Source of the DNA: Gemmatimonadaceae bacterium
Lineage (GTDB): Bacteria; Gemmatimonadota; Gemmatimonadetes; Gemmatimonadales; Gemmatimonadaceae
Assembly (NCBI GenBank): GCA_025358925.1
Contig: JANYHT010000005.1
Location: 1 to 39,334, forward strand
Length of the DNA: 39,334 nt
Reading direction: 5' to 3'
Shown here: positions 5,262 to 21,833 of the stretch, piece after piece
Layout: every line of letters starts with the position of its first letter
Numbering within the stretch: position 1 is the first letter of the stretch
Made by a program: the position numbers and the translations under genes
Notes under the pieces: generated by a model
Databases searched by the model: none
What the model saw: only the letters and a program-made list of their open reading frames with translations
Told to the model about the DNA's origin: nothing

Positions 5262-6881
5262 CTAGCAGCCGTAGAGCGACGTATTTCGTGTAACGGAGTT
5301 GCGATCCGCAACCGACGTTGCGACACCGCGTGCACGACTGAGCGTGCTACACGCGCCCGCTCGATCACCGGCGAGCTTCAGCAAGTTGGCCTTCAACAAA
5401 TACGCGCGCGCACTATCGGACGGCGTCTGTGCGCTTGGTAGCAGCACGTTAATGCGCGCGATTAAGTCATTCGCATGCGCAGGGTCATCATGACCCTCGT
5501 CCGCTAAGAGCAACGCATCGAGTGAGTCGCGCACGACGTCGAGTCGCGCGCTCAGGTCACTCAGATTTTTTACGGGACGCGTTGACGCGATTGTTGTATC
5601 AACGTTGGGCCGAAGAACAACGGGTGAAGGTGATGTGCTCACGGTCGATTGAGTGCGCGTAACTGCGGCGACCGAGTCAAGCACTGGCGCGGCTGGTGCC
5701 GCCGCACGCATTGTGCTATCGCCAACGCGCAGTGGCACGACACCGCTGGCGATCGGCGCCTGCAATGGTCCGCGATCCTTGCGCATCACCACCAGTACTA
5801 ACGCAGCAGCAACAAGCACAAGCACTCCAATGGTTGGCGCGATCCAGCGTGGCCGACGGATCGCGTTTCCTTCACCGGAAGCAACAGGTGTTGGCAGCAC
5901 GCGCACACCACCACTCGGCATTGGACGCGTGTTGCCGTCCATCGCATCCCGCAACGCTTCGGAAAATGCCGCCGCCGATGGATAGCGGCCACTTGGTTCA
6001 CGCGCCAACACGCGATCAAACACCGCCTGCAAGCCCACGGGCCACGCACGCGAAGGCGCTACTTCGTCAAGCCGCAACGGTGCGTCCATCAACACGGCGC
6101 TAAATCCGCGCTCTGGCGTTGGTGCCGCAAACGGTAACGTGTTGGTCAGAGCACGAAACGCCAACAAGCCCAACGCAAAAACATCAGAGCGACAATCAAT
6201 CGTCGACCCAAGAAACTGCTCCGGACTCATATACTGCGGCGTGCCCGTGACAAATCCTGGCGTCGTGAGCGTATCATCGTTATCGGGACCGATGGCCTTC
6301 GCGATGCCAAAGTCCACAATTTTTGCGCACTCTCGGCCGTCGGCAGTTGTCATCAGGAGCACGTTGTCGGGCTTGAGATCGCGATGCACAATATCCAATC
6401 GATGTGCGGCGCCTAGTCCGTCTGCAAGTTGCGTTATCAGCGATACCACGCGCACCGACGGCAGGGCGCCCTCTTGATCGAGCACCCACGACAGCGTCGG
6501 TCCGGGGATGTACTCCATGGCAAGGTACGTCCCGCCACCAGCTAACCGTCCAAAATCGAAGACCCGCGCCACATGCGGATTCTCAATGCGGCTTGTGCTA
6601 CTGGCCTCGCGCGTAAACCGCGCGACCGCGGCCGGATCATTGGTGAGTCGAGCGTGGAGGACTTTGACGGCGACTTTTCGGGGAAGGTGGACGTGGTGTC
6701 CCAAGTACACGCGTCCCATGCCACCTTCACCCAGAAGCGCCGTGATCACGTAGCGCTCATCGATCACGCTGTCGATCAGACTATCGCCCGCACTCCCACC
6801 TTGCAGCGCCGAACCGTCGGCCGCGCAAAAGATGTGTTCGTCTTCGTAGATCCGGTCGCACAGCGGGCAAGTTTTGGACAT
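5262..6881 (-). CDS. Membrane-anchored Ser/Thr protein kinase with N-terminal zinc ribbon
   Basis: A 539-residue eukaryotic-like (Hanks-type) kinase. Residues 5-19 (CPLC...FC, then DG) form a small zinc-ribbon-like motif. The kinase domain runs about 44-315: glycine loop GEGGMG (51-56), ATP-binding Lys73, catalytic HRDLKPDN (His166, Asp168), DFG (Asp190), and the activation-segment end GTPQYMSPEQ. All catalytic residues are present, so it should be active. A single membrane segment lies at about 347-366, followed by a 170-residue extracytoplasmic part ending in a helical region (AYLLKANLLKLAGDRAGAC) that has no sensory domain I recognise. It would phosphorylate cytoplasmic or envelope-associated proteins in response to a signal outside. 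The start at 6881 places the zinc ribbon at the N-terminus. Divergent from the CsgG-like gene at 6990. Confidence 0.93.
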   Translation of the reverse strand: MSKTCPLCDRIYEDEHIFCAADGSALQGGSAGDSLIDSVIDERYVITALLGEGGMGRVYLGHHVHLPRKVAVKVLHARLTNDPAAVARFTREASSTSRIENPHVARVFDFGRLAGGGTYLAMEYIPGPTLSWVLDQEGALPSVRVVSLITQLADGLGAAHRLDIVHRDLKPDNVLLMTTADGRECAKIVDFGIAKAIGPDNDDTLTTPGFVTGTPQYMSPEQFLGSTIDCRSDVFALGLLAFRALTNTLPFAAPTPERGFSAVLMDAPLRLDEVAPSRAWPVGLQAVFDRVLAREPSGRYPSAAAFSEALRDAMDGNTRPMPSGGVRVLPTPVASGEGNAIRRPRWIAPTIGVLVLVAAALVLVVMRKDRGPLQAPIASGVVPLRVGDSTMRAAAPAAPVLDSVAAVTRTQSTVSTSPSPVVLRPNVDTTIASTRPVKNLSDLSARLDVVRDSLDALLLADEGHDDPAHANDLIARINVLLPSAQTPSDSARAYLLKANLLKLAGDRAGACSTLSRARGVATSVADRNSVTRNTSLYGC

Positions 6882-6989
6882 CGGCAGGGGTCACGGTGAA
6901 CGAAATCAAACGGCAGACGCAGCGCGAGCATGACAGGTCATCTTGACGCTGAATTGGCGATGCACCAACGTCAATGAGCATGCAGACGC

Positions 6990-7769
6990 ATGTTACCCCT
7001 CTTTTCCGAGGTTCTGGTGTCCCGCACCACATCTGCCCATGCAGTGCCGCTAACCCGCGTGAACCGAATCCTCACCGTCGTCGGGCTGTCGCTGACCGTT
7101 GCGATACAGACGGCGAGCGCTCAGGCGCGCATCATGGATACGCGTCCTACCGTTGCCGTATTCTACTTCGACAACGGATCGCTTGTTGACAACGCCAAGT
7201 TCGAACCGCTGCGTAAAGGGTTGGCGATGATGCTTGGCTACGAATTGGCGCGAAATCCAGGCATTCGGGTGGTGGAGCGCGACAAACTACAGGAACTCTT
7301 GGCCGAACAGAACTTGCAAAATTCAGATCGGGTCGATCCCGCGACGGCCGTGCGTTTGGGCAAATTGCTCGGCGCTCGGCATTTCATTGACGGAACCTTC
7401 ATCATTGACGCGAGCAAGAAGCTGCGCATTGACGTGCGCGCGGTGAATACGGAGACTGGGCAGTGGGATTATGTCGAGACCATTCGCGGCAAGTCCGATC
7501 ATTTGCTCGACATTGTCGGAGAGCTCGGCGCAAAAATAAATAAGGGGATGAAGTTGCCGGAGATTCCCATTGTGAAGGGCGCGGTTGTGCCAGCGACGCG
7601 TGGGCCCAATCAGGAACGCATTTCGCAATTAGTCAGTCGTGCAGAGGAGGAGATGGACCGCGGGAATACGAAGTACGCCGCGACGTTATACCGGAACGTG
7701 TTGGAGTTGAACAAAAACTATGATTTGGCGCAGACGCGGTTGGCTAGCATAGAACGTTTGGCGAAATAG
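6990..7769 (+). CDS. CsgG/FlgO-like periplasmic protein
   Basis: A 259-residue exported protein. After a hydrophobic signal segment ending ASAQA, the core has the CsgG-type order: strand TVAVFYFDNGS, helix PLRKGLAMMLGYELA, then IRVVERDKLQELLAEQNLQ and the signature ARLGKLLGARHFIDGTFI-like segment (VRLGKLLGARHFIDGTF), followed by strands for RIDVRAVNTETGQWDYVET. The C-terminal 60 residues look like a TPR-like pair of helices (ISQLVSRAEEEMDRGNTKYA). It is the second CsgG-like protein in 7 kb and shares this domain order with the lipoprotein at 1334-2266, but lacks a lipobox. The start is uncertain: ATG at 6990 gives a long N-terminus, GTG at 7059 a compact signal peptide (VNRILTVVGLSLTVAIQ). 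It lies divergent from the kinase and just upstream of the BTAD protein (61 bp). Confidence 0.75.
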   Translation: MLPLFSEVLVSRTTSAHAVPLTRVNRILTVVGLSLTVAIQTASAQARIMDTRPTVAVFYFDNGSLVDNAKFEPLRKGLAMMLGYELARNPGIRVVERDKLQELLAEQNLQNSDRVDPATAVRLGKLLGARHFIDGTFIIDASKKLRIDVRAVNTETGQWDYVETIRGKSDHLLDIVGELGAKINKGMKLPEIPIVKGAVVPATRGPNQERISQLVSRAEEEMDRGNTKYAATLYRNVLELNKNYDLAQTRLASIERLAK

Positions 7770-7830
7770 GTTGCAGTCGGCGATACCCTGTTGACGCCGC
7801 ATTGACGCGCACGCGCTATGTGTTCGCGCG

Positions 7831-10800
7831 ATGAAACTGATGCCAACGACGCGCGGTGCGCCAAGTACCGATTCCGTGCTGCCCGCATTTCTGCTGCGCA
7901 CCCTTGGCGCGGCTGAGCTCTGTGAAATTGCGCCTGGTGGCGCGGTACTTCCGCGCGTGTTGGGTCCGGGCAAGCCGCTTGCGCTACTCGTGTATTGTGC
8001 GTGCGCGCGCGACCGAGCGCACGCCCGTGACATGCTTGCGGCGTTACTCTGGGCCGACTCCGACCCCGAAAAGTCTCGACATAATGTACGCCAAGCGCTT
8101 TGGCGACTTCGTCGCGTACTTGGCGATGTGTTGGTCACGCGCGATGACGCGGTTGAAGGCATTCACCCCGCGCTCGAATCGGATCGAGAACGATTCCTGC
8201 GCGCCGTACATGGCGATGATGCGGAGTTAGCGCTCTTATTGTACTCGGGTCCATTTTTGCGCGGCCTGACCTTACCGGGTGGCGATGAATTTGAAGACTG
8301 GGCGATTGCGGAGCGGCGGCGGTTAGAAGACTCGCTCCTTCGCGTGGTGCAGCCGTATGCGCGTGAGCTCGTGAAGCGCGATCGACCGGGACGCGTGTGT
8401 GAAGTTGCGGAACGATTGATCGTACTCGCGCCTGACTCACTCGACGCGCATCGCATTGCCACCGATTTGTTGGTGGCGGCCGGCGACCGTTCGGCGGCAC
8501 GTCGTGTCGCGGATCGACTTGAGCAATTGGCTGTTGAAACGATCGGCCACACGCCGACTGATGCGGCTGCGGCCATTGCACGGGCGCGTACCACGGCGAC
8601 CGTTGAGCCAGTCGAAATCGTGCGCGCGATTGCGCTGGATCTGGTTGGCCGCGATGCAGAATTTGGTGCTGTACTCGAGGCGTGGAGTCGCGCTCGTGTT
8701 GGCACGACGCAGGTGGTCGCGATGACCGGTATTGCTGGCATCGGGAAGAGTCGATTGCTCGCCGCTATTGCTACACGATGCAGCGGCCGACGCGCTCGTT
8801 CGGTGAGTGTGCGCGCCAATCCCGGAGAGCTCGAGGTGCCGTTTGGATTCGCGGCAGGCATTGCTCGTGCGCTCTCGACGCAACCGGGTGCAGCGGGCAT
8901 TAATGTTGACAGCGCGCGTGAAATTGTCGCGCTCGACCCTGGGCTTGGCAGTGTGTTTGCAACGACGCCGTCCGCGACCGATGGCGGTGAAGCAGTGCGA
9001 CGACGCGCGCTCGCCCTGTTGGATCTCGTGAGCGCCATCGCTGAACAGGAACCATTGGCGTTGTTACTCGACGATTTGCATTGGGCCGATGCATCATCAC
9101 GACAACTGCTCGCGGTTGTCCTTGGACGTGCGACGGAATTACCGCTAATGGTTGTGGTGACTACGCGAGCGACGAGTGCGGTGATTGTCGAGCATCGGGC
9201 CCTCACGACGGTGTCACTGCTCGCGCTAGACGGCGATGCGGTGATTGACGCCATTCGAAGTTCTGGTAGCTGGCCCGAGCACGCAGAGGCGCAGCTCTTT
9301 GTGCGTCGGCTCGCGAGCGTGTGTGATGGAATTCCGCTCAGTGTGGTAGAGCGACTCGCCTTGGCTCGTGATACTGGCAACCTCGTTGATCACGACGGCA
9401 TGTGGGACTCTCCAGACTGGCAGCAGGCCACGCGTGATATCGGGGTCGCGTCGCCGCTTGATCAGCGTTTGCTCGCCTGCACGCCGATTGAATCGCGCAC
9501 GTTGCTCACGTTGTCCGTCGCGGGTACTCCACTCGCGGACGCGGTCATTCGCGACGCATTGCCCAAGGAGAGTGCGTCGACCGTGGCGGACGCACTCCAA
9601 GCACTTGAAGTAAAAGGGCTGCTCGTACGCACGCGCGACGGGTGGTCGATGTGGCATGATGTCGTCAGTGAGCGCACGCTTGCACTCACTGCACCTGAAG
9701 ACCGTCAAGCGCGGCACGGTGCGTTGGCGACTGCGCTCATGTTGTCTGGCTCGTCGCTCTCTCATGCAGCGGCCGTTCGTCATTTCGTGCAGGCGATGGA
9801 CGATGACGCGGCTGGCGTGGTGTTCGCGAAGATTGTTGCGGCGGGGCGTCGGAGTGGCGATGCGCGACATGCACGCGATGTCCTCACCGACTGTGTTGGC
9901 GAGCGTCTGTCCGAGGTGCGGCTGCGTCGTGTGCTCCGTGCTGTGCCATTCTGGAATCGTAGTGCCCGTTTACGCACGCGCTCAGTCTTGGTTGCGGCAT
10001 CACTCGTGGTGCTCGCCACCAGTGTGTCTGCATGGTATGCGCGTCGGCAGCCCGCATTAGCGTTTGCGCAAGCGCCCGTGGTTGCGGAGGCCGCACGCAG
10101 TTTCCGATCAGACGCATTTCGATTGCTGCCGTCTGCAATCGTGCGCTTCGGATCGAGCGAACGTGTGTTACCAGCAGCAGCGGGATCGTCGATGGTACAC
10201 GTGCGCTCGCTCCGAGCGACTGCGACAATTTTATCCGGTGACTCTGTCGTTGCGGACAGCGGTGTCGCGAGTTTTGGCGCGTTGCGTTTTGCGACGACCG
10301 ACTCGGTGCTCATTCTACGCTTTGAAGCAGAGGGATTTCGCCCGCTCGACTTCGAACTCAAGATGCGGGATAATCACCTGCCGAATGGACCAGGACGCTC
10401 GTCGACGAGGCTCTATGATGGCATGCTCAATGGTCAACATGTGCGCGGACCAAACGCACAAATCGTTGTAGCGCGTGACGCAACGGTGTCGGGCGTGGTG
10501 CAGGTGGAATACAACTCGTCGTGGCCAGCGGCGTCGGTGTGGCTGTCCCTCACGCCTACGTGGGGACGTGCGTCCGAAGTGGGCCGCGAGATCATCCCCG
10601 TCTCAACTCCGGTGCGGCAAGATGTCGTGGACGTACCAGTCGATGTCGTTGCACCACACGCACCTGGACAATATTGGATTTTGTTTATGGTCGACGCCGA
10701 GCCGTCTGGTGGGTTTGGTCTTTCGCGCACGAATTGGACGCTCGGTGCTGCGGAGTGGGGTGACGGGAACGATCTTGCGGCGCTTCCGGATAGCGTGATT

Positions 10801-10968
10801 CGCGTGGCCAATCGCGATGGCATCGTGCTCACGGACATTTTGTATCCAGCGTTGTGGAACACGGGCGGATATGTGTGTCGTGATAGTGCAGGCGTCGTGC
10901 ATGGCAAGCGCGTCAAGTACTGTCCGCGTCAACTGGGCATGTTCGGTATCCGAGTGATCGTCAATTGA
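7831..10968 (+). CDS. BTAD-AAA ATPase regulator fused to a membrane-anchored C-terminal region
   Basis: A 1045-residue protein. Residues 20-105 look like the winged-helix OmpR/SARP-type domain (HARDMLAALLWADSDPEKSR, VRQALWRLRRVLGDVL), and 110-250 like the bacterial transcriptional activation domain (BTAD), a TPR-like fold. A STAND/AAA-type ATPase follows with Walker A GIAGIGKS (300-307) and Walker B LLLDDLHWAD (411-420). The usual C-terminal LuxR or TPR part is absent. Instead there is one hydrophobic segment at about 717-737, then 300 residues without a recognised domain that would sit outside the cytoplasm. DNA binding was not shown; I infer a membrane-bound sensor/regulator. An ATG is used, without a strong ribosome-binding site. 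It is in line with the CsgG-like gene 61 bp upstream and probably co-transcribed with it. Confidence 0.83.
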   Translation: MKLMPTTRGAPSTDSVLPAFLLRTLGAAELCEIAPGGAVLPRVLGPGKPLALLVYCACARDRAHARDMLAALLWADSDPEKSRHNVRQALWRLRRVLGDVLVTRDDAVEGIHPALESDRERFLRAVHGDDAELALLLYSGPFLRGLTLPGGDEFEDWAIAERRRLEDSLLRVVQPYARELVKRDRPGRVCEVAERLIVLAPDSLDAHRIATDLLVAAGDRSAARRVADRLEQLAVETIGHTPTDAAAAIARARTTATVEPVEIVRAIALDLVGRDAEFGAVLEAWSRARVGTTQVVAMTGIAGIGKSRLLAAIATRCSGRRARSVSVRANPGELEVPFGFAAGIARALSTQPGAAGINVDSAREIVALDPGLGSVFATTPSATDGGEAVRRRALALLDLVSAIAEQEPLALLLDDLHWADASSRQLLAVVLGRATELPLMVVVTTRATSAVIVEHRALTTVSLLALDGDAVIDAIRSSGSWPEHAEAQLFVRRLASVCDGIPLSVVERLALARDTGNLVDHDGMWDSPDWQQATRDIGVASPLDQRLLACTPIESRTLLTLSVAGTPLADAVIRDALPKESASTVADALQALEVKGLLVRTRDGWSMWHDVVSERTLALTAPEDRQARHGALATALMLSGSSLSHAAAVRHFVQAMDDDAAGVVFAKIVAAGRRSGDARHARDVLTDCVGERLSEVRLRRVLRAVPFWNRSARLRTRSVLVAASLVVLATSVSAWYARRQPALAFAQAPVVAEAARSFRSDAFRLLPSAIVRFGSSERVLPAAAGSSMVHVRSLRATATILSGDSVVADSGVASFGALRFATTDSVLILRFEAEGFRPLDFELKMRDNHLPNGPGRSSTRLYDGMLNGQHVRGPNAQIVVARDATVSGVVQVEYNSSWPAASVWLSLTPTWGRASEVGREIIPVSTPVRQDVVDVPVDVVAPHAPGQYWILFMVDAEPSGGFGLSRTNWTLGAAEWGDGNDLAALPDSVIRVANRDGIVLTDILYPALWNTGGYVCRDSAGVVHGKRVKYCPRQLGMFGIRVIVN

Positions 10969-11074
10969 GTGTCAACAGTGTGATGTAGTCGTTGTGTGCA
11001 CGGCGATCGCACGATCGGGACTTGGCGACTGTGCGGCCATTGACGGTGGATCGACGGATGACAGATAGCGTATC

Positions 11075-11105
11075 GAGGTGCGTCATCCGAACCTCACCGC
11101 ACCTC
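11075..11105 (+). promoter_or_regulatory. Perfect 8-bp hairpin in the leader of the PEP-CTERM gene
   Basis: GAGGTGCG (11075-11082) and CGCACCTC (11098-11105) can form a stem with a 15-nt loop, 23 nt before the start at 11129. It may end the upstream transcript or control translation. No U-tract follows, so a simple intrinsic terminator is not well supported. Confidence 0.4.
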
Positions 11106-11128
11106 ACTCCAACGATCAGGATTACTTC

Positions 11129-12220
11129 ATGTCGTTCATGCAACGCAGAAATTGGGGGACCACACGTCTCTTCGGAATCGTGCTACTCGCCTCAGTGTGC
11201 CTGACCACGACAAATGCGCACGCGCAGGCACCGACGCTTTGGAATTGGCAGCTCGTCAGTCAGGGCTCACCGCTGCAACCGTACGATCCGCGCGCCGCGC
11301 TCACTTCGATCTACGCAAAGACAACGACCGATGTGTATCTCGCCGGTTGTTATCGCTGTCTTGAACGGTGGGATGGCACAACGTTCTCCGCACAGGCGCA
11401 GCCAGCCGGCAACAATCGCTATACCGTGTCTGGCGCGCCAGATGGCAGCGTCTACTCGGCCGGTCAGTCCAACTTGCTGCGCTTCGACGGTTCGAGTTGG
11501 ACAAGTGTGCTTCAAGCACAGAGCGAACTGTTCTCAACGTATGTCGCACCTGATGGCACCGTCTTCACGTCCGGCGATGGTGTGGTCTATCGCAATGCGG
11601 GCGCCGGATATGTCCGCCTTACCACCGGACTAAGCACAGCGTTTAACACCGATCGCCTCCTCGCAATGACCGGATTTAGCGCCAACGATGTATTCATTGG
11701 CGGCTACGGCGGCAAAATTCTACGTTTTAACGGCACAACATTTTCGTTGATGAATACCGGAACAACGGAGCCCATTGACGCGATAGATGCGAGGAGTCCA
11801 ACGCAGGTCTACGCCGTTGGACAGCACGGCACCGTTTTGCATTTCAACGGCGTTGCGTGGATCACACTTCCCCCACCCGCGCTCGGCAATCTGCGTGGTG
11901 TGCAAGTGCTCGGTGACAACGACGTCATCGTCTCGGGTGACGGCGGCGTGTTGGCGCGATGGAACGGACTCGCGTGGTCGTACATCAATCTTGGCACGAC
12001 ACTCACGCTCGGCAACATCAGTACGCCGGACAATGGGCAAACACTGTTTATTGTCGCGATCACCAACAGCGATGTGCAGTTTTACGAAGGGCGCAACGCG
12101 AGTCCGTTGTCGTCGACGGTGCCGGAACCGGGTTCGCTCGCGTTGGTTGGGGTTGGGATTGCGGGGCTGGTGTTTGGAATGCGAAAGCGCAGTGCGTTTT
12201 CATTGACTCGCGGCAGATAA
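11129..12220 (+). CDS. PEP-CTERM protein with beta-propeller-like repeats
   Basis: A 363-residue secreted protein. The signal peptide (RRNWGTTRLF, then hydrophobic core, cleavage near NAHAQA) follows from the ATG at 11129; the frame itself is open from 11078. The body contains at least five repeats with the pattern [R/H][W/F][D/N]G..[W/F], e.g. RWDGTTF, RFDGSSW, RFNGTTF, HFNGVAW, RWNGLAW, spaced about 40-60 residues, which fits the blades of a beta propeller. The C-terminus has VPEPGS, a hydrophobic segment and a basic end (MRKR), the PEP-CTERM sorting signal recognised by exosortase, so it is probably delivered to the cell surface. No exosortase gene lies in the window. Function of the propeller unknown. 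Convergent with another PEP-CTERM gene at 12322. Confidence 0.85.
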   Translation: MSFMQRRNWGTTRLFGIVLLASVCLTTTNAHAQAPTLWNWQLVSQGSPLQPYDPRAALTSIYAKTTTDVYLAGCYRCLERWDGTTFSAQAQPAGNNRYTVSGAPDGSVYSAGQSNLLRFDGSSWTSVLQAQSELFSTYVAPDGTVFTSGDGVVYRNAGAGYVRLTTGLSTAFNTDRLLAMTGFSANDVFIGGYGGKILRFNGTTFSLMNTGTTEPIDAIDARSPTQVYAVGQHGTVLHFNGVAWITLPPPALGNLRGVQVLGDNDVIVSGDGGVLARWNGLAWSYINLGTTLTLGNISTPDNGQTLFIVAITNSDVQFYEGRNASPLSSTVPEPGSLALVGVGIAGLVFGMRKRSAFSLTRGR

Positions 12221-12251
12221 GTTTTACGCGGGTCGATCACACACAGTTGGT

Positions 12252-12288
12252 AGCGCCATGCGACGCGGTGGACCGTTTGCATGGCGCT
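12252..12288. terminator. Bidirectional hairpin between convergent PEP-CTERM genes
   Basis: AGCGCCATGC (12252-12261) pairs perfectly with GCATGGCGCT (12279-12288) around a 17-nt loop. It lies in the 101-bp gap between two convergent genes, the usual place for a shared terminator. There is no clear U-tract on either side. Confidence 0.55.
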
Positions 12289-12321
12289 CGCTCTACAATG
12301 CGCTTTACCAAGTGCGATGAG

Positions 12322-13050
12322 TTACGCGTTGCTTTGGCCACGAGATATCAGCACAAACAGACCGAGTCCACATGCGAGCAGCAAACACGTTGATGGCTCT
12401 GGCGCGATAAGGAACGGGTTGTTGCTGAACCTCGCAGTAAAAGCTGCGTCACAACTGTAGCAGCCTTCGTTGTGATACCAAGTCACCGTGGAAAGGTCAG
12501 AAAAGGTGCCACCGTAGTACGAATTGATCCATGTGCCGCTGGTGTAGTCGTCGTAACCGTACCCCATCAGCAGTCCGTAAATTTTGTCAAGCATCTGATC
12601 AATCACTTCGGTCGTACTAAGAAACAATACAATGTTTTGATTTGGCGCGACCAGCACGCCTCCCGTGACAAAGTTATAGAAACCCGGGCCAACTTTTGTA
12701 TCGCTTTTCCAAAGAACCGAACCAGTCGCGTGTTCGTTGGCCGCATCCCATCCCATCACGTACGCGTTAAAATGCAAATTGGGATTGTAGATTTGCGGAT
12801 TCCCATGCGCGTTCAACTGGAATGAAAACGAATCCAAAGAATTGCTTCCGTTCGGCGTGATGAGCGTTTGCCCGTACGTCGAATTCGCCGCGTTCGTCAA
12901 CATGCCGATTTGTCGAGGTGCGGGCGGCGTTGAGATGGTCACTTGCGCCTGCAGTGTTGTCGGATAAAACGCCAAGTGGAGTACGGACAGTGCGGAGAAG
13001 AAAGGTCTGGTAAATTTGAAAACCACGCTGCGAATTGCTGCACCGAGCAA
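12322..13050 (-). CDS. PEP-CTERM protein
   Basis: A protein of up to 242 residues. It begins with a signal peptide (basic residues before a hydrophobic core, cleavage near LQAQ). The central part is rich in Asn, Gly, Tyr and Thr with no family I recognise; it reads like a beta-sandwich, with MLTNAANSTYGQTL and SGTWINSYYGGTF. The C-terminus is a PEP-CTERM signal: APEPST, a hydrophobic helix containing a Cys, and a short basic end (ISRGQ). It should be exported and anchored or released by exosortase. The start at 13050 is a TTG; a GTG at 13026 would give a shorter and more typical signal peptide (FKFTRPFF...). The gene is convergent with the PEP-CTERM gene at 11129 and divergent from the orphan gene at 13146. 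Confidence 0.78.
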   Translation of the reverse strand: MLGAAIRSVVFKFTRPFFSALSVLHLAFYPTTLQAQVTISTPPAPRQIGMLTNAANSTYGQTLITPNGSNSLDSFSFQLNAHGNPQIYNPNLHFNAYVMGWDAANEHATGSVLWKSDTKVGPGFYNFVTGGVLVAPNQNIVLFLSTTEVIDQMLDKIYGLLMGYGYDDYTSGTWINSYYGGTFSDLSTVTWYHNEGCYSCDAAFTARFSNNPFLIAPEPSTCLLLACGLGLFVLISRGQSNA

Positions 13051-13145
13051 CTTCTAGGCAATTGAGACTGGCGGACGTCACGCTTCATCAGTTGATTCGA
13101 CCAGCATGCAATTTAGGAAAACCGCACAGCCATGTCTTACGTCAT

Positions 13146-13685
13146 ATGATCAATTCCGGGGTACAGTCGCGTGCGATGCAAGACGTGATCGAGGCGCTGC
13201 TTCGAGATCCCGCAGCACCGTGGAGGATGCTTGCGACAGTTACGCTAACCGATGCGCTTAACATTGCGAGTGCTGCGGGTGTCGAAGCCGCGCTCGAAAG
13301 TCGGGAGTCTGGGTTCGATGAGAACATCATTATCGAAGCCTCGGGATCAAACGCGCCGGAAACGATAATTTTTTCGCGCGAGGACGGGCCGCGCATTGAG
13401 GCGAAGCGCTCGCGGCAATCCAACGTCGCGACGATCGAATTCCGCGCATCAATTTCATTAACGGTCGTGCACATAAATCTTGTGTTGAGTTCACCAGTCG
13501 GTAACATCTGCTTGCCCGTGATCACCGGTGACCATGCGGCCGTACTTTCACACGGATGGGCTCAAAATTCCGCAGGACGTTCGGCGCCGATGCGGGTGCA
13601 CGGTAATGCGCTCGCCGATGCGCTACGCCGCCTGTCTCATCCCAACGTAGGAACGATTACAGAAGCGTCGGACACTAGGTGGTAG
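13146..13685 (+). CDS. Orphan protein of unknown function
   Basis: A frame of 179 residues from ATG 13146 (in-frame ATG also at 13176; the frame is open from 13035, but this would overlap the divergent gene's leader). The protein is soluble, with no signal peptide or membrane segment. Visible pieces include a helical N-terminal half (MQDVIEALLRDPAAPWRMLA, DALNIASAAGVEAALES) and a more beta-rich middle (ASISLTVVHINLVLSS). No family is recognised. The complementary strand also has a long open frame (13142-13525), so coding direction is not beyond doubt; I prefer the plus strand for its longer frame and the helix/strand pattern. It stands alone, and may belong to the accessory stretch that includes the nuclease and toxin-antitoxin remnant. 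Confidence 0.45.
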   Translation: MINSGVQSRAMQDVIEALLRDPAAPWRMLATVTLTDALNIASAAGVEAALESRESGFDENIIIEASGSNAPETIIFSREDGPRIEAKRSRQSNVATIEFRASISLTVVHINLVLSSPVGNICLPVITGDHAAVLSHGWAQNSAGRSAPMRVHGNALADALRRLSHPNVGTITEASDTRW

Positions 13686-13716
13686 CCTTCGCGATTATGA
13701 GCCAGACCACAATATT

Positions 13717-13908
13717 TTAACGCTCGGCGTGTAACCAACATCGAACCTCACGATTCGTAACAAACTCTGGTCTAGTCTTCGACAATGACTTTTCGCACCC
13801 ATGCGTTCGCTCGGCGTCGCTTAACGATTTGAGGCGGACAGTGTCCAACGGCGCAAAGGTATATCGGAGAATCGTGTGTGCGTGAAACCACTTCACGAAC
13901 CGACGCAT
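13717..13908 (-). CDS. Small hypothetical protein downstream of the nuclease gene
   Basis: A 63-residue frame (ATG at 13908) starting 11 bp after the stop codon of the PD-(D/E)XK gene and on the same strand, so it may be the second gene of a two-gene unit. Residues near the start (VKWFHAHTILRY) and end (VRCWLHAER) contain Trp, His and Cys. Codon third positions are only mildly GC-rich. No family is recognised and it may not be coding; without it the 13686-13919 gap holds nothing else I can name. Confidence 0.3.
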   Translation of the reverse strand: MRRFVKWFHAHTILRYTFAPLDTVRLKSLSDAERTHGCEKSLSKTRPEFVTNREVRCWLHAER

Positions 13909-13919
13909 ATTGCAGCGCC

Positions 13920-14897
13920 TTAGGACAGCGCGGCCCAGGCTTGACTGAGCACCTTCTCCGCGAGTCGTAGTCGCTCCACCGTTGCGTCAAGGTCTAATCG
14001 GCCATCGCAAAGCATCCGATAGTCTCCGTTGAATTGAGCTACTGTCATGGTCGCACCTCTGATCGTCGTCTTACACACATCGAGCTCGTTGTGCCCTCCG
14101 ATTTTGATAAGCTTCTGCTGCAACTGATGTGCAAGATCCGGGCTTTGATCGTTGCTCTTCGTAAGTTTGAAACACAGCTTGCCCTCTTCGAGCTGAAGGT
14201 AGGGCACACCCTCAGAGTTCGCGATTCCCCACCAAAATCCTTGGAAGCCACCACGCGGGTTGCTCACCGGGCCCCAATCGCCGCCGATCGTTTTTCGCTG
14301 TAGTTCGGAATAAAACCCCTGCCATGTACGTGCTTTTTCCCAATCGGGGAAAGGTAATTTCCAAGAATTGAAATCGTCTTCAAGCTGTAGCAGCCAATTG
14401 CGGAAATCACGCGCAATGGAGTCGGTGAGAACGTCGGGACTCGACTCTTTAAATAGTCGTAAAAAATCGGCGCGAGTAAACCGAAAGTAGCCCGCCTCCT
14501 CCACAGCTTTATAGCTCGACTGCTCGTGGGTCTGCACATAAACCAACAGGCATTTTTCTACTGGTACCCCTTCCGACGAAATCGCGTTAGGGTAGCGCAC
14601 GAGCTGATCATTGTGCTCGGTGCTTCCGACTTTGTCCTCAATGCAAATCGTCCACTCATCGTTGATTCGAACGACCAGATCGATGTTCTTGTGCTGACGT
14701 TTAATAGTGAGTGAATTAATCACCGGCATTACCTTCTTGTTTAGCCTAAAGAATTCGTGCAATATGGACGCTCCAAGTGCGTGGAGCCCGGCACTAAATT
14801 GCGCATTTTTGGGATCGGCCCACGCGATAAGCCAAGCAAGCACAGCATCCTGCGACAGCTCCTTCGTCGCGTAGTGGAAAAGATTCGGGCGAGTCAT
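13920..14897 (-). CDS. PD-(D/E)XK nuclease superfamily protein
   Basis: A 325-residue protein beginning MTRPNLFHYATKELSQDAVL, which matches the N-terminus of the PDDEXK_4 type (NLF.YATKELSQDA..CWL.EWAD). The nuclease core is visible at Asp73 (NIDLVV), Glu87 and Lys89 (CIEDKV), with a downstream Gln98 (DQLVRY), so the D...ExK catalytic set is complete and a Mg-dependent nuclease activity is expected. Target unknown; relatives are often encoded alone or near defence genes. The ATG at 14897 is chosen because homologous sequence starts there; the frame extends to 14963. No methylase or other restriction partner is adjacent. A small frame follows 11 bp downstream; upstream lies a Clp N-domain protein. 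Confidence 0.85.
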   Translation of the reverse strand: MTRPNLFHYATKELSQDAVLAWLIAWADPKNAQFSAGLHALGASILHEFFRLNKKVMPVINSLTIKRQHKNIDLVVRINDEWTICIEDKVGSTEHNDQLVRYPNAISSEGVPVEKCLLVYVQTHEQSSYKAVEEAGYFRFTRADFLRLFKESSPDVLTDSIARDFRNWLLQLEDDFNSWKLPFPDWEKARTWQGFYSELQRKTIGGDWGPVSNPRGGFQGFWWGIANSEGVPYLQLEEGKLCFKLTKSNDQSPDLAHQLQQKLIKIGGHNELDVCKTTIRGATMTVAQFNGDYRMLCDGRLDLDATVERLRLAEKVLSQAWAALS

Positions 14898-15021
14898 TTC
14901 AAATCGTGGGCTTAGGGTTGATGTGTGGAACGCTTGCGGTCCATTAACGGTCAGCCAAAACATTGGGCCGTGAGACTGTCAGCGAATCGGAAGATTGTCA
15001 AGAGAATGTAGCGTCGCCAAG

Positions 15022-15036
15022 GTGCTCTCGGAGCAC
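15022..15036 (-). terminator. Short hairpin downstream of the Clp N-domain gene
   Basis: GTGCTC (15022-15027) and GAGCAC (15031-15036) form a perfect 6-bp stem around TCG, 58 bp past the Clp-domain gene on the minus strand. No U-tract follows, so termination is only possible. Confidence 0.25.
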
Positions 15037-15093
15037 ACGGTTGCCCGAAAGAATGGGAGGCGGCGGCACCGTCAGTGCCATACCTCTCGCACG

Positions 15094-15678
15094 TCACGCG
15101 AGCATGGTGAGAAACTGCAGCGCCGCCGAGCGACTCGACAATTCTTCACGGACGCTCGTGCCGTCCGTGAAGTGTACTTCGACTTCGACGCGACGGATCG
15201 GACGAGTGGTACGTCCGAGCGAATCCACCTCCTCTTTCATCGCGAGCGCCGCGGCAATCGCAGCACGGGTCGCGTCGAGCGTCGCACCCGCCTGCGCGAG
15301 AAGCTGCGCCACATTGCCACTCTCGCGGACAAGGCCTACCAGTAGATGTTCAGTGCCGACATACGCCAGATCGAGTGCATGCGCCTCGGTCATCGCGAAT
15401 TCTAAGACCTTCTTCGCGCGCGTTGTGTATGGTGGCACGAACTGCGTCGCGGTCTGCGGGTGCTCCGGGTTCACAACTTCCGTCAGGCTTTCGAGAAGAC
15501 TGTGGACATCGATGTTGAGTTTCGCGAAAATCGCGGTCGTTTCAGCGTCCGGCTCGTGCAGCAGGGCAGCGAGCAGCTGCTCGATTCCGACCGCTGCGAG
15601 ATGCTGTCGTGTAGCCTTCGCGGCAGCCGCTGCGATGACCTGTCGTGCGCGCTCATTGAAATTGAATCCGTATGCCAT
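15094..15678 (-). CDS. Stand-alone Clp N-domain protein (ClpC/ClpA N-terminal repeat type)
   Basis: A 194-residue protein with two Clp N-repeat motifs: residues about 5-70 (FNERARQVIAAAAAKATRQH, VGIEQLLAALLHE) and 80-145 (YTTRAKKVLEFAMTEAHALD, VGTEHLLVGLVRE). These match the substrate- and adaptor-binding N-domain of ClpC/ClpA unfoldases. There is no AAA domain, so it cannot unfold proteins itself; comparable ClpS-like or ClpT-like free N-domains in other organisms modulate the Clp protease. A 45-residue tail (RRVEVEVHFTDGTSVREELS) is extra and beta-rich. It lies alone, upstream of the nuclease gene by 197 bp. ATG start at 15678; no strong ribosome-binding site was seen. Confidence 0.85.
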   Translation of the reverse strand: MAYGFNFNERARQVIAAAAAKATRQHLAAVGIEQLLAALLHEPDAETTAIFAKLNIDVHSLLESLTEVVNPEHPQTATQFVPPYTTRAKKVLEFAMTEAHALDLAYVGTEHLLVGLVRESGNVAQLLAQAGATLDATRAAIAAALAMKEEVDSLGRTTRPIRRVEVEVHFTDGTSVREELSSRSAALQFLTMLA

Positions 15679-15965
15679 GGCGTTGGTGATAGGGTTGTGA
15701 GCGGCCAGGTAACTGCGGTCGATTTGTATTGCACGCTGGTAGGCATTCTGCTTAACTCATCAGCGCCCACGGCATCCTCATTAACGCGATGGAAACGCCT
15801 AAGCTCGCGCGCGAAAAACCGGCCGGTCGGGCGATGTTCGATGACCCAGACAGTGCCCTAGTAACTAATCCTCCTCGAGCGGAGCGGTCGCGCATTCAGC
15901 ACTGTTGCAAACGCACAAGCACGTAATCACCGTAATAAGTCTTACCCATTACCGCAGAGTGTCCA
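15679..15965. other. Gap without a supported gene
   Basis: This 287-bp stretch lies upstream of two divergent units (Clp-domain gene, toxin-antitoxin remnant) and should hold their promoters. I see no RNA gene, clear promoter or family-like frame in it. Confidence 0.5.
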
Positions 15966-16196
15966 ATGCCCTCGTCCACTTTAACTTCAAAGTATCAGGC
16001 CACAATTCCAAAGGCCGTGCGGGGAACGCTGCAGCTAGGTGCTGGGGATGGAATCGACTAAACGCTCGAGAGCGACGGCCGAGTGTGGCTGCGGAAATCG
16101 CTACCCGTCACGTCGATCGAGTTGCAGGCACTCGAGGCAACCCTTACGCCGGAGTGGAACTCACAAGTCGATGACCTCGCTTATCGCGACCTTTAG
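15966..16196 (+). pseudogene. AbrB/SpoVT-type antitoxin, interrupted by an in-frame TAA
   Basis: Reading from ATG 15966 gives MPSSTLTSKYQATIPKAVRG, the swapped-hairpin AbrB DNA-binding start (SKYQATIPK.VR). After GAGDGID the frame meets TAA at 16059-16061 and then continues in the same frame as TLESDGRVWLRKSLPV and ends EWNSQVDDLAYRDL, the acidic tail typical of antitoxins that bind and neutralise the toxin. Without the TAA the protein would be 76-77 residues, the usual size. The simplest reading is a single substitution such as TAC or TAT to TAA. The end overlaps the toxin frame by 26 bp, the normal arrangement of an antitoxin-toxin operon. The 31-residue truncated product could not bind the toxin. 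Readthrough or a sequencing error is possible. Confidence 0.85.
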
Positions 16197-16516
16197 GCCG
16201 GGCGACGTGGTGGTCGTGCCATTCCCGTTTACCGATCGCGAGGCTGCGCAGCGTCGGCCGACGTTGGTGTGCTCCCTCGAATCGTACAACCGGGATGCTC
16301 GACACCTCGTGCTCGCCATGATCACGACGATGGGCCATGACGCATGGCCGCCGCGATGTCGTCCTTTCCGACCTCGCGGCGGCGGGATTGATTGCGCCGT
16401 CAATCGTGCGATGGAAACTGTTCACGCTCGCCGACTTATTCGTTATCAGAGTGGTGGGCGCGCTTTGCGAGCGAGATCGATTTGCGTGTCGCGCCGCGCA
16501 ACCGCTCGCACTCTGA
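16171..16516 (+). pseudogene. MazF/PemK-type toxin, frameshifted
   Basis: ATG 16171 opens a frame with FRPGDVVVVPFPFTD, then RRPTLVCSLESYNRD and LVLAMITTMGHDAWP, a textbook PemK/MazF start (ribonuclease toxins of type II systems). After about 16345-16354 the frame turns to nonsense, whereas the +1 frame continues RDVVLSDLAAAGLIAPSIVR, then WKLFTLADLFVIRVVGALCE and stops at 16514-16516. Removing one C in the run CCGCCGCG joins the halves into 114 residues, the usual family length. The unshifted frame runs on through the antisense of tRNA-Gln, which shows it is not genuine. So the toxin is broken in one place, like its antitoxin. Both lesions being single-base events suggests recent decay, or error in the underlying sequence. 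Confidence 0.85.
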
Positions 16517-16631
16517 TCGGAGTTGCGCGCAACGCTTTGCGAACGAATACGAAGCCTCTCGAAACAGGCTCAGTCGTCGCTGGTGTGGTTAGCAGTCCAC
16601 GCAACATCCCGCTTCTCGCTTCTAAGCACGA

Positions 16632-16663
16632 AGCGCCGCACCGACAGCTGTCGTTGCGGCGCT
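16632..16663 (-). terminator. Long hairpin after tRNA-Gln
   Basis: A 32-nt inverted repeat: AGCGCCGCACCGACAG (16632-16647) against its near-perfect complement 16648-16663, with one C/T mismatch and no spacer, so the innermost pairs open as loop. It lies 6 nt past the 3' end of tRNA-Gln on the minus strand, where a terminator is expected. No strong U-tract follows. Confidence 0.65.
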
Positions 16664-16669
16664 CACGAT

Positions 16670-16741
16670 TGCCCCTCCAGGTTTCGAACCTGGAACCTTC
16701 TGATTCAGAGTCAGACGCTCTGCCAGTTGAGCTAAGGGGCA
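16670..16741 (-). tRNA. tRNA-Gln (anticodon CUG)
   Basis: A 72-nt cloverleaf: acceptor TGCCCCT with AGGGGCA, D-arm GCTC/GAGC, anticodon stem TCTGA/TCAGA with loop CTCTGAA (anticodon CTG, reading CAG), T-arm CCAGG TTCGAAA CCTGG. All stems pair perfectly. CCA is not encoded. It lies 675 bp downstream of the glutaminyl-tRNA synthetase gene on the same strand. A strong hairpin follows at 16632-16663. Confidence 0.95.
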
Positions 16742-17146
16742 TCAGGGATCAGCCGTTCGGGCATCACCGTTTCTGGCGAGCCACAAGATATCGACCGCAG
16801 AGCCCTCGGCGGTAGTGCTAGCCAGGATGCAGTGCGAGCACGCTTCAACGTCGTACCTATTCAGCCAGCGCAAACGACAATTCGACAAGCAGCTGATGCA
16901 ATCGACGCACGGACTGCGTCACCTCCAAAGTCCCGTCCACACAGTCGACAAAGATGGAGCGGGCCGTCAGGCAACGCGCACTCGCCCCCCAGGAGTCCAA
17001 ATACGCCTCTCGGCAACAGGCATGACCACTTGTGTTGCGCACATCGTCGACACGGCTTAAGAGCACACCGCGTGGTAGGAGCGTCTCTCTAAACACCCGT
17101 CATCGAAACTGTGCGCGAGTGATCACCAGAGTACACCCAGACCCCG
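16742..17146. other. 405-bp gap, possible small frame only
   Basis: No RNA, repeat or recognised gene. A minus-strand frame of 79 codons (GTG 17096 to 16857) ends in a helical stretch (VTQSVRRLHQLLVELSFALA) and has four Cys, but resembles no family and has no ribosome-binding site. I leave it uncalled. The gap should hold the tRNA-Gln promoter. Confidence 0.3.
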
Positions 17147-21161: not shown

Positions 21162-21833
21162 GTGTTCAAACGCCAACTCTCGCTTTTCGCTTTCGCCGCG
21201 CTGTTTGCGGCGACGGCGCTGCCTGCGCAGAGTTTGCTCACGGCCACTGTGAGCGGCATGACGCAAGTCACCGACTTCAGCGCGTCCTGCAGGAACGGCA
21301 ATGGAAATGGTTATTACTGCTTTGGTACGGGACCGCGTGACGTTGGGAAAGATGGATTTGTTGTGCAGTACTCGGCCACCAGCGCACAGTCACTCATCGG
21401 TTTCGATGTTTATCACTTTGTCGATAACGGCGACTGGCAAGGCATTTATTACGGCGCCACGAACACCGACAATTCTGTAGTCCGTTTCACGTTTGCGACG
21501 GCCGTGTCCAGCGTTGGTGCAATTATCAATTATTCGCCAAAGAATGGTACGCCAACCATTCGCGCCTTTGACGCCTCGAACAACGTGATCGCGACGTTTG
21601 GCCTGATCGGTCCCGCCTCCATCACGACGACGGGACTGAACGACGGAGCGTTTCGCGGTATCTCATCGTCCAGCGCCAACATTACGGCGTTTGAAATTAC
21701 GGGTGGATTCATTGCCACACAAAATCTCTCAGTATCCGGTTTGACGACCGTGCCGGAGCCGTCAACCGTTGCGCTGACGGGCGTCGGTCTGCTTGGACTC
21801 ATCGTCCTGCGTCGGCGTACGCGCAAGCAGTAA
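21162..21833 (+). CDS. PEP-CTERM protein
   Basis: A 223-residue secreted protein. From the GTG at 21162 the N-terminus is FKRQLSLFAFAALFAATALP, a compact signal peptide with cleavage near PAQS; an earlier GTG at 21120 adds 14 residues. The body resembles the beta-sandwich of many PEP-CTERM proteins, with GFDVYHFVDNGDWQGIYYG, RAFDASNNVIATFG and ITAFEITGGF. A Cys pair is seen near the N-terminus (ASC, YYCFG). The end is VPEPST, a hydrophobic stretch and RRRTRKQ, the exosortase sorting signal. Third such protein in the window. It has no operon partner; upstream is a 300-bp gap, downstream the photolyase 92 bp on. Function unknown. Confidence 0.8.
   Translation: MFKRQLSLFAFAALFAATALPAQSLLTATVSGMTQVTDFSASCRNGNGNGYYCFGTGPRDVGKDGFVVQYSATSAQSLIGFDVYHFVDNGDWQGIYYGATNTDNSVVRFTFATAVSSVGAIINYSPKNGTPTIRAFDASNNVIATFGLIGPASITTTGLNDGAFRGISSSSANITAFEITGGFIATQNLSVSGLTTVPEPSTVALTGVGLLGLIVLRRRTRKQ

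Follow-up and report, generated by a model that had tools for sequence, protein, structure and literature searches.

A probable pseudogenized second copy of a MazEF/PemIK-like toxin-antitoxin module in a Gemmatimonas-type bacterium

Introduction

MazF/PemK toxins are RNases that are held by the C-terminal tail of the antitoxin, and the AbrB-fold N-terminal part of the antitoxin binds the operator. The locus we describe here resembles MazEF/PemIK modules, in which a PemK_toxin domain (PF02452) is paired with an AbrB/MazE-type antitoxin (PF04014/PF15937). The likeness concerns the order of the genes (antitoxin before toxin), their overlap, their sizes, the family profiles that they match and the presence of a palindrome upstream of the antitoxin. 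The locus lies in a window of 39,334 nucleotides (the whole stretch of DNA that we analyzed) from a Gemmatimonadaceae bacterium. In contrast to MazEF/PemIK, both of its frames are broken and its palindrome is imperfect, so it is very probably not a working module.

Toxin-antitoxin loci that have decayed are not new. Degenerate chromosomal loci and orphan antitoxins have been reported, for example, ccdAB in E. coli, a parE pseudogene in Caulobacter and yacB in Shigella (PMC7354431). Frameshifted or pseudogene toxins in such degenerate loci have already been described, and related antitoxins are known to cross-interact (PMC7354431). Our locus is similar to these cases in that it is a chromosomal module whose function was lost or whose toxin was inactivated. 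It differs from them in that the antitoxin is broken too and in that an intact sister copy is found in the same genome. For toxin-antitoxin systems in Gemmatimonas, we found nothing specific in the literature.

As read from one assembly, this Gemmatimonas-type bacterium very probably carries here a dead type II toxin-antitoxin module, the pseudogenized second of two copies. Below we present the evidence for this reading together with the alternatives. A first-pass annotation of the same DNA had proposed a toxin-antitoxin pair with a single-base lesion in each gene, and we discuss where this description holds and where it does not.

Lesions in the antitoxin and the toxin

The antitoxin frame opens with the ATG at 15966 and encodes 31 residues before it meets a TAA at 16059–16061. 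It then continues in the same frame for another 44 residues to a TAG at 16194–16196; the first-pass annotation had noted both the TAA and the resumption in frame. Across the whole frame, 78% of the residues are identical to those of an intact antitoxin encoded on contig C65 of the same genome (see below), and the C-terminal tails of the two proteins agree in 22 of 27 residues. The 31-residue piece in front of the stop matches the Pfam families PrlF_antitoxin (E 2e-5) and MazE_antitoxin (E 6e-5), both below the cut-offs, as is expected for a piece this short. Some antitoxin residues that are otherwise uniform among the copies are changed in the window alone, for example, E20G and R29G. The stop at codon 32 is predicted to cut inside the AbrB fold and to take off the antitoxin tail.

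The toxin is broken in a different way. Homology extends from the ATG at 16171 to about 16345, and from about 16349 it is found one frame later, ending at 16516. The broken window genes were searched and aligned as separate pieces, and the two halves of the toxin align with the intact toxin of C65 in two frames (E 1e-24 for residues 2–57 and E 3e-17 for residues 56–110), which bears out the proposed frameshift at about 16345–16354 with resumption in the +1 frame. The first half also scores above the Pfam cut-off for PF02452 (PemK_toxin; E 2.4e-5, 24.9 bits against a cut-off of 23.1). These matches place the toxin homology far beyond chance. The profile check recommended by the first-pass annotation puts the first toxin half above its cut-off and the first antitoxin piece below. 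Among the toxin positions that are changed only in the window and are otherwise uniform are 4, 39 and 87 (in the aligned pieces). The frame change is predicted to take off the C-terminal half of the toxin.

One alternative would be that the pair is intact and only appears broken through two errors in base calling or assembly. Both lesions are read from a single assembly, and the frame change falls within a short GC-rich repeat, CCGCCGCG, which is prone to slippage errors. The antitoxin stop is harder to explain in this way. The codon at its position encodes Phe (TTT/TTC) in C65 and in the four copies from the same genus that we compared, and TAA is two substitutions, at adjacent bases, away from it. 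A single base change would restore some sense codon, though not Phe. Hence, the claim that both genes would be of full length if one base each were changed is only partly right: the intact antitoxin homologue is indeed exactly 76 residues long, but the antitoxin stop is two substitutions from the Phe codon of its relatives. For the antitoxin, a single-base lesion is too simple a description.

We do not regard the 258-residue open reading frame at 16039–16815 (+) as a gene, although a gene caller might annotate it as one: it consists of the toxin frame, which continues beyond the shift and crosses the antisense of the tRNA-Gln.

Table 1. Features of the toxin-antitoxin relic and of the islet in which it lies (window coordinates)
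Feature	Position	Strand	Remarks
Variable islet holding the pair	12298..16597		G018 without DNA-level match here
347-residue protein	13920–14963	-	PD-(D/E)XK nuclease domain PF14281; partial matches to the PADLOC candidate defence family PDC-S26, E 1e-11; in islet
194-residue protein	15094–15678	-	Clp_N repeats without ATPase part; in islet, adjoins toxin-antitoxin relic
Decayed operator	15921..15952	+	Window GTAATAAGTCTTACCCATTAC; C65 perfect palindrome GTAATGGGTAATACCCATTAC; most genus copies GTAATACGTATTAC
Weakened Shine-Dalgarno region	15946..15965	+	Before antitoxin start; GAG match only
Antitoxin pseudogene, AbrB/MazE/PrlF type	15966..16196	+	76 codons, in-frame TAA at codon 32 (16059–16061)
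Toxin pseudogene, PemK/MazF type	16171..16516	+	One-base frame change at about 16345–16354; overlaps antitoxin end
tRNA-Gln (CTG), islet border	16669..16741	-

Damage upstream and the state of the neighboring genes

Damage to the locus is not limited to the two frames; the first-pass annotation missed the changes in the ribosome-binding site and the operator (Table 1). In the window, the best palindrome upstream of the antitoxin pairs at 7 of 10 positions versus 10 of 10 in C65, and a perfect GTAATACGTATTAC core is present in five of the seven other copies we found. Similarly, the Shine-Dalgarno sequence is reduced to GAG in the window, whereas it reads AAGGAG in C65 and includes GGAGG in all seven other copies; each of these eight intact copies matches in at least five bases. 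Judged by pattern, both the operator and the ribosome-binding site of the window copy appear weakened. This argues against sequencing errors as the source of the lesions.

Neither do the surrounding genes point to a poor sequence. When aligned at the DNA level with the nearest relative, genome G018, the large genes around the locus contain no uncompensated internal frameshift. Small indels at 8164/8171 and 21541–21558 restore the frame, and the remaining indels are found outside of genes, near the ends of genes or in unconvincing open reading frames. Together with the two-substitution stop and the degraded upstream region, these genes make it very unlikely that errors created both lesions.

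Intact copies in the same and in other genomes

A search of the window's own genome returned one other strong match, on contig C65 (1368–1941, E 5.7e-106). This sister module (1404–1953, L002) is 75% identical to the window at the DNA level across the operator-antitoxin-toxin cassette. It differs from the window copy by intact frames, a perfect 10-pair palindrome, an AAGGAG ribosome-binding site and other chromosomal neighbors. The C65 antitoxin scores above the cut-offs for MazE_antitoxin, PrlF_antitoxin and TIGR01439, and the C65 toxin, whose intact frame overlaps the antitoxin end, scores above the Pfam cut-off for the PemK/MazF family (E 5e-13). We assign C65 to the window genome because 5 kb of its interior are 88% identical to G018, just as the window flanks are 86–87% identical to G018.

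Intact copies also exist elsewhere. Among 60 related genomes searched, four of the same genus carry a full-length toxin (63–65% identity) with no frame change, each with an intact antitoxin of 74 residues. A scan of named genomes yielded seven copies with open toxins in Gemmatimonas or Gemmatimonadaceae metagenome-assembled genomes (MAGs), which include the four from the same genus, as well as more distant ones in many phyla. The intact relatives are unremarkable, yet they are only distantly related to solved MazF-type proteins; the best match is 7bye (E 1e-5), and MazF6 gives E 2e-4. In a tree of nine copies, the window and C65 are grouped apart from the seven others with 100% support. By this tree, the window and C65 copies are each other's closest relatives among the copies found.

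Neither the stop nor the frame change is present in any of the intact homologues examined, that is, in C65 and the seven other Gemmatimonadaceae copies. This is the comparison with relatives that the first-pass annotation had called for, and it also bears on a further alternative, namely that readthrough of the TAA and ribosomal frameshifting are programmed and yield two full-length proteins. It is true that both frames resume with good homology. Yet none of the intact homologues has either feature, and it is improbable that recoding would arise twice, independently, in so small an operon whose ribosome-binding site is degraded. We give this idea almost no credence. The first-pass annotation had left room for sequencing errors and for readthrough of the antitoxin stop; both are disfavored by the regulatory damage, the two-substitution stop, the intact neighboring genes and the homologues free of lesions. 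Real pseudogenization is by a wide margin the likeliest of these readings, programmed frameshifting included.

DNA homology between the copies begins at the operator and stops at the end of the toxin, except for flanks common to two members of the genus. The module is thus a compact cassette of about 600 bp, which several species of the genus carry at different places in the chromosome. A TATTACCGTATTAC-type operator-like motif that resembles the Gemmatimonas operator is also found upstream of the toxin in L062, L063 and L064 (at about 1171–1301), which are related pairs in MAGs labeled Natronospirales and Nitrococcus. Hence, the DNA site seems to be conserved with the cassette across phyla.

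Selection and the timing of decay

The divergence between the window and the C65 copy shows a dN/dS of 0.15 (0.07 for the antitoxin and 0.23 for the toxin), and 85 of the 141 differences are at third codon positions. This low ratio indicates that both copies encoded functional proteins for most of their divergence and that the decay is comparatively recent. The ratio of changes at codon positions 1 and 2 to those at position 3 is 0.29 on the window branch versus 0.16 on the C65 branch; it is higher in the window in 74 of 100 codon bootstraps, which is not significant. Relaxed selection on the window branch is therefore suggested at most.

How a redundant module could have decayed

The intact module would presumably work like MazEF/PemIK: an RNase toxin would be held by the antitoxin tail, and the toxin-antitoxin complex would autoregulate by acting on the palindrome. 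The window copy would produce neither an active toxin nor a folded antitoxin. This loss could be tolerated in one of two ways. Either the antitoxin became dispensable once the toxin was lost, or the antitoxin from C65 serves for both toxins. The intact spare on C65 may be the reason why both genes could decay without harm; its antitoxin may neutralize the window toxin and could have shielded the cell regardless of which gene was the first to break. Given the similarity of the tails and the cross-interaction described for related antitoxins (PMC7354431), either order of decay is possible.

The first-pass annotation had argued that a toxin that has lost its antitoxin must be lost too. Decay of both genes is supported, in line with this argument, but the obligation is weakened by the intact C65 antitoxin with its 22 of 27 identical tail residues. 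Since a paralogous antitoxin can lift the obligation, a double lesion does not prove that the two genes had to decay together.

One could also argue that the pair, though truncated, is still of use. Translation from an internal start (e.g., GTG at 16083) would give a 37-residue antitoxin tail that could bind the C65 toxin; alternatively, what is left of the operator could bind the C65 antitoxin. The tail is well conserved relative to C65, and orphan antitoxins with cross-interaction have been described (PMC7354431). However, the symmetry of the operator is lost, and recent decay predicts conservation of the tail equally well. We therefore regard a residual function of the pair as highly unlikely, and we are just as doubtful that the intact module on C65 is modulated in trans by such a tail peptide or by the remains of the operator. 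If it were true, the relic would be a toxin-antitoxin pseudogene with a regulatory role.

As a pseudogenized second copy, the relic is a real but ordinary case of gene decay, part of routine genome turnover. It nevertheless provides a clean, small example of a redundant toxin-antitoxin module dying, in which every part, from the operator and the ribosome-binding site to the antitoxin and the toxin, has suffered damage and the intact sister is kept.

A variable islet next to a tRNA gene

Contig C465 of G018 matches the window at 6872–12297 and at 16598–16645, with nothing between at the DNA level. We infer that C465 adjoins, across a contig break, contig C125 (window 16652 onward). The homologous borders are about 1.85 kb apart in G018 versus 4.3 kb in the window. 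Since G018 carries a different insert at the same place, the pair sits in a variable islet, bordered by a tRNA-Gln gene (Table 1). A comparison of 16598–16745 with 11800–16590 for att-like repeats of the 3′ end of the tRNA-Gln gave no exact match of at least 11 bases, so an integrase-type insertion could not be shown. The islet also contains a PEP-CTERM-like gene at 12322–13050, and the shorter insert of G018 has one as well (both read by eye from the C-termini).
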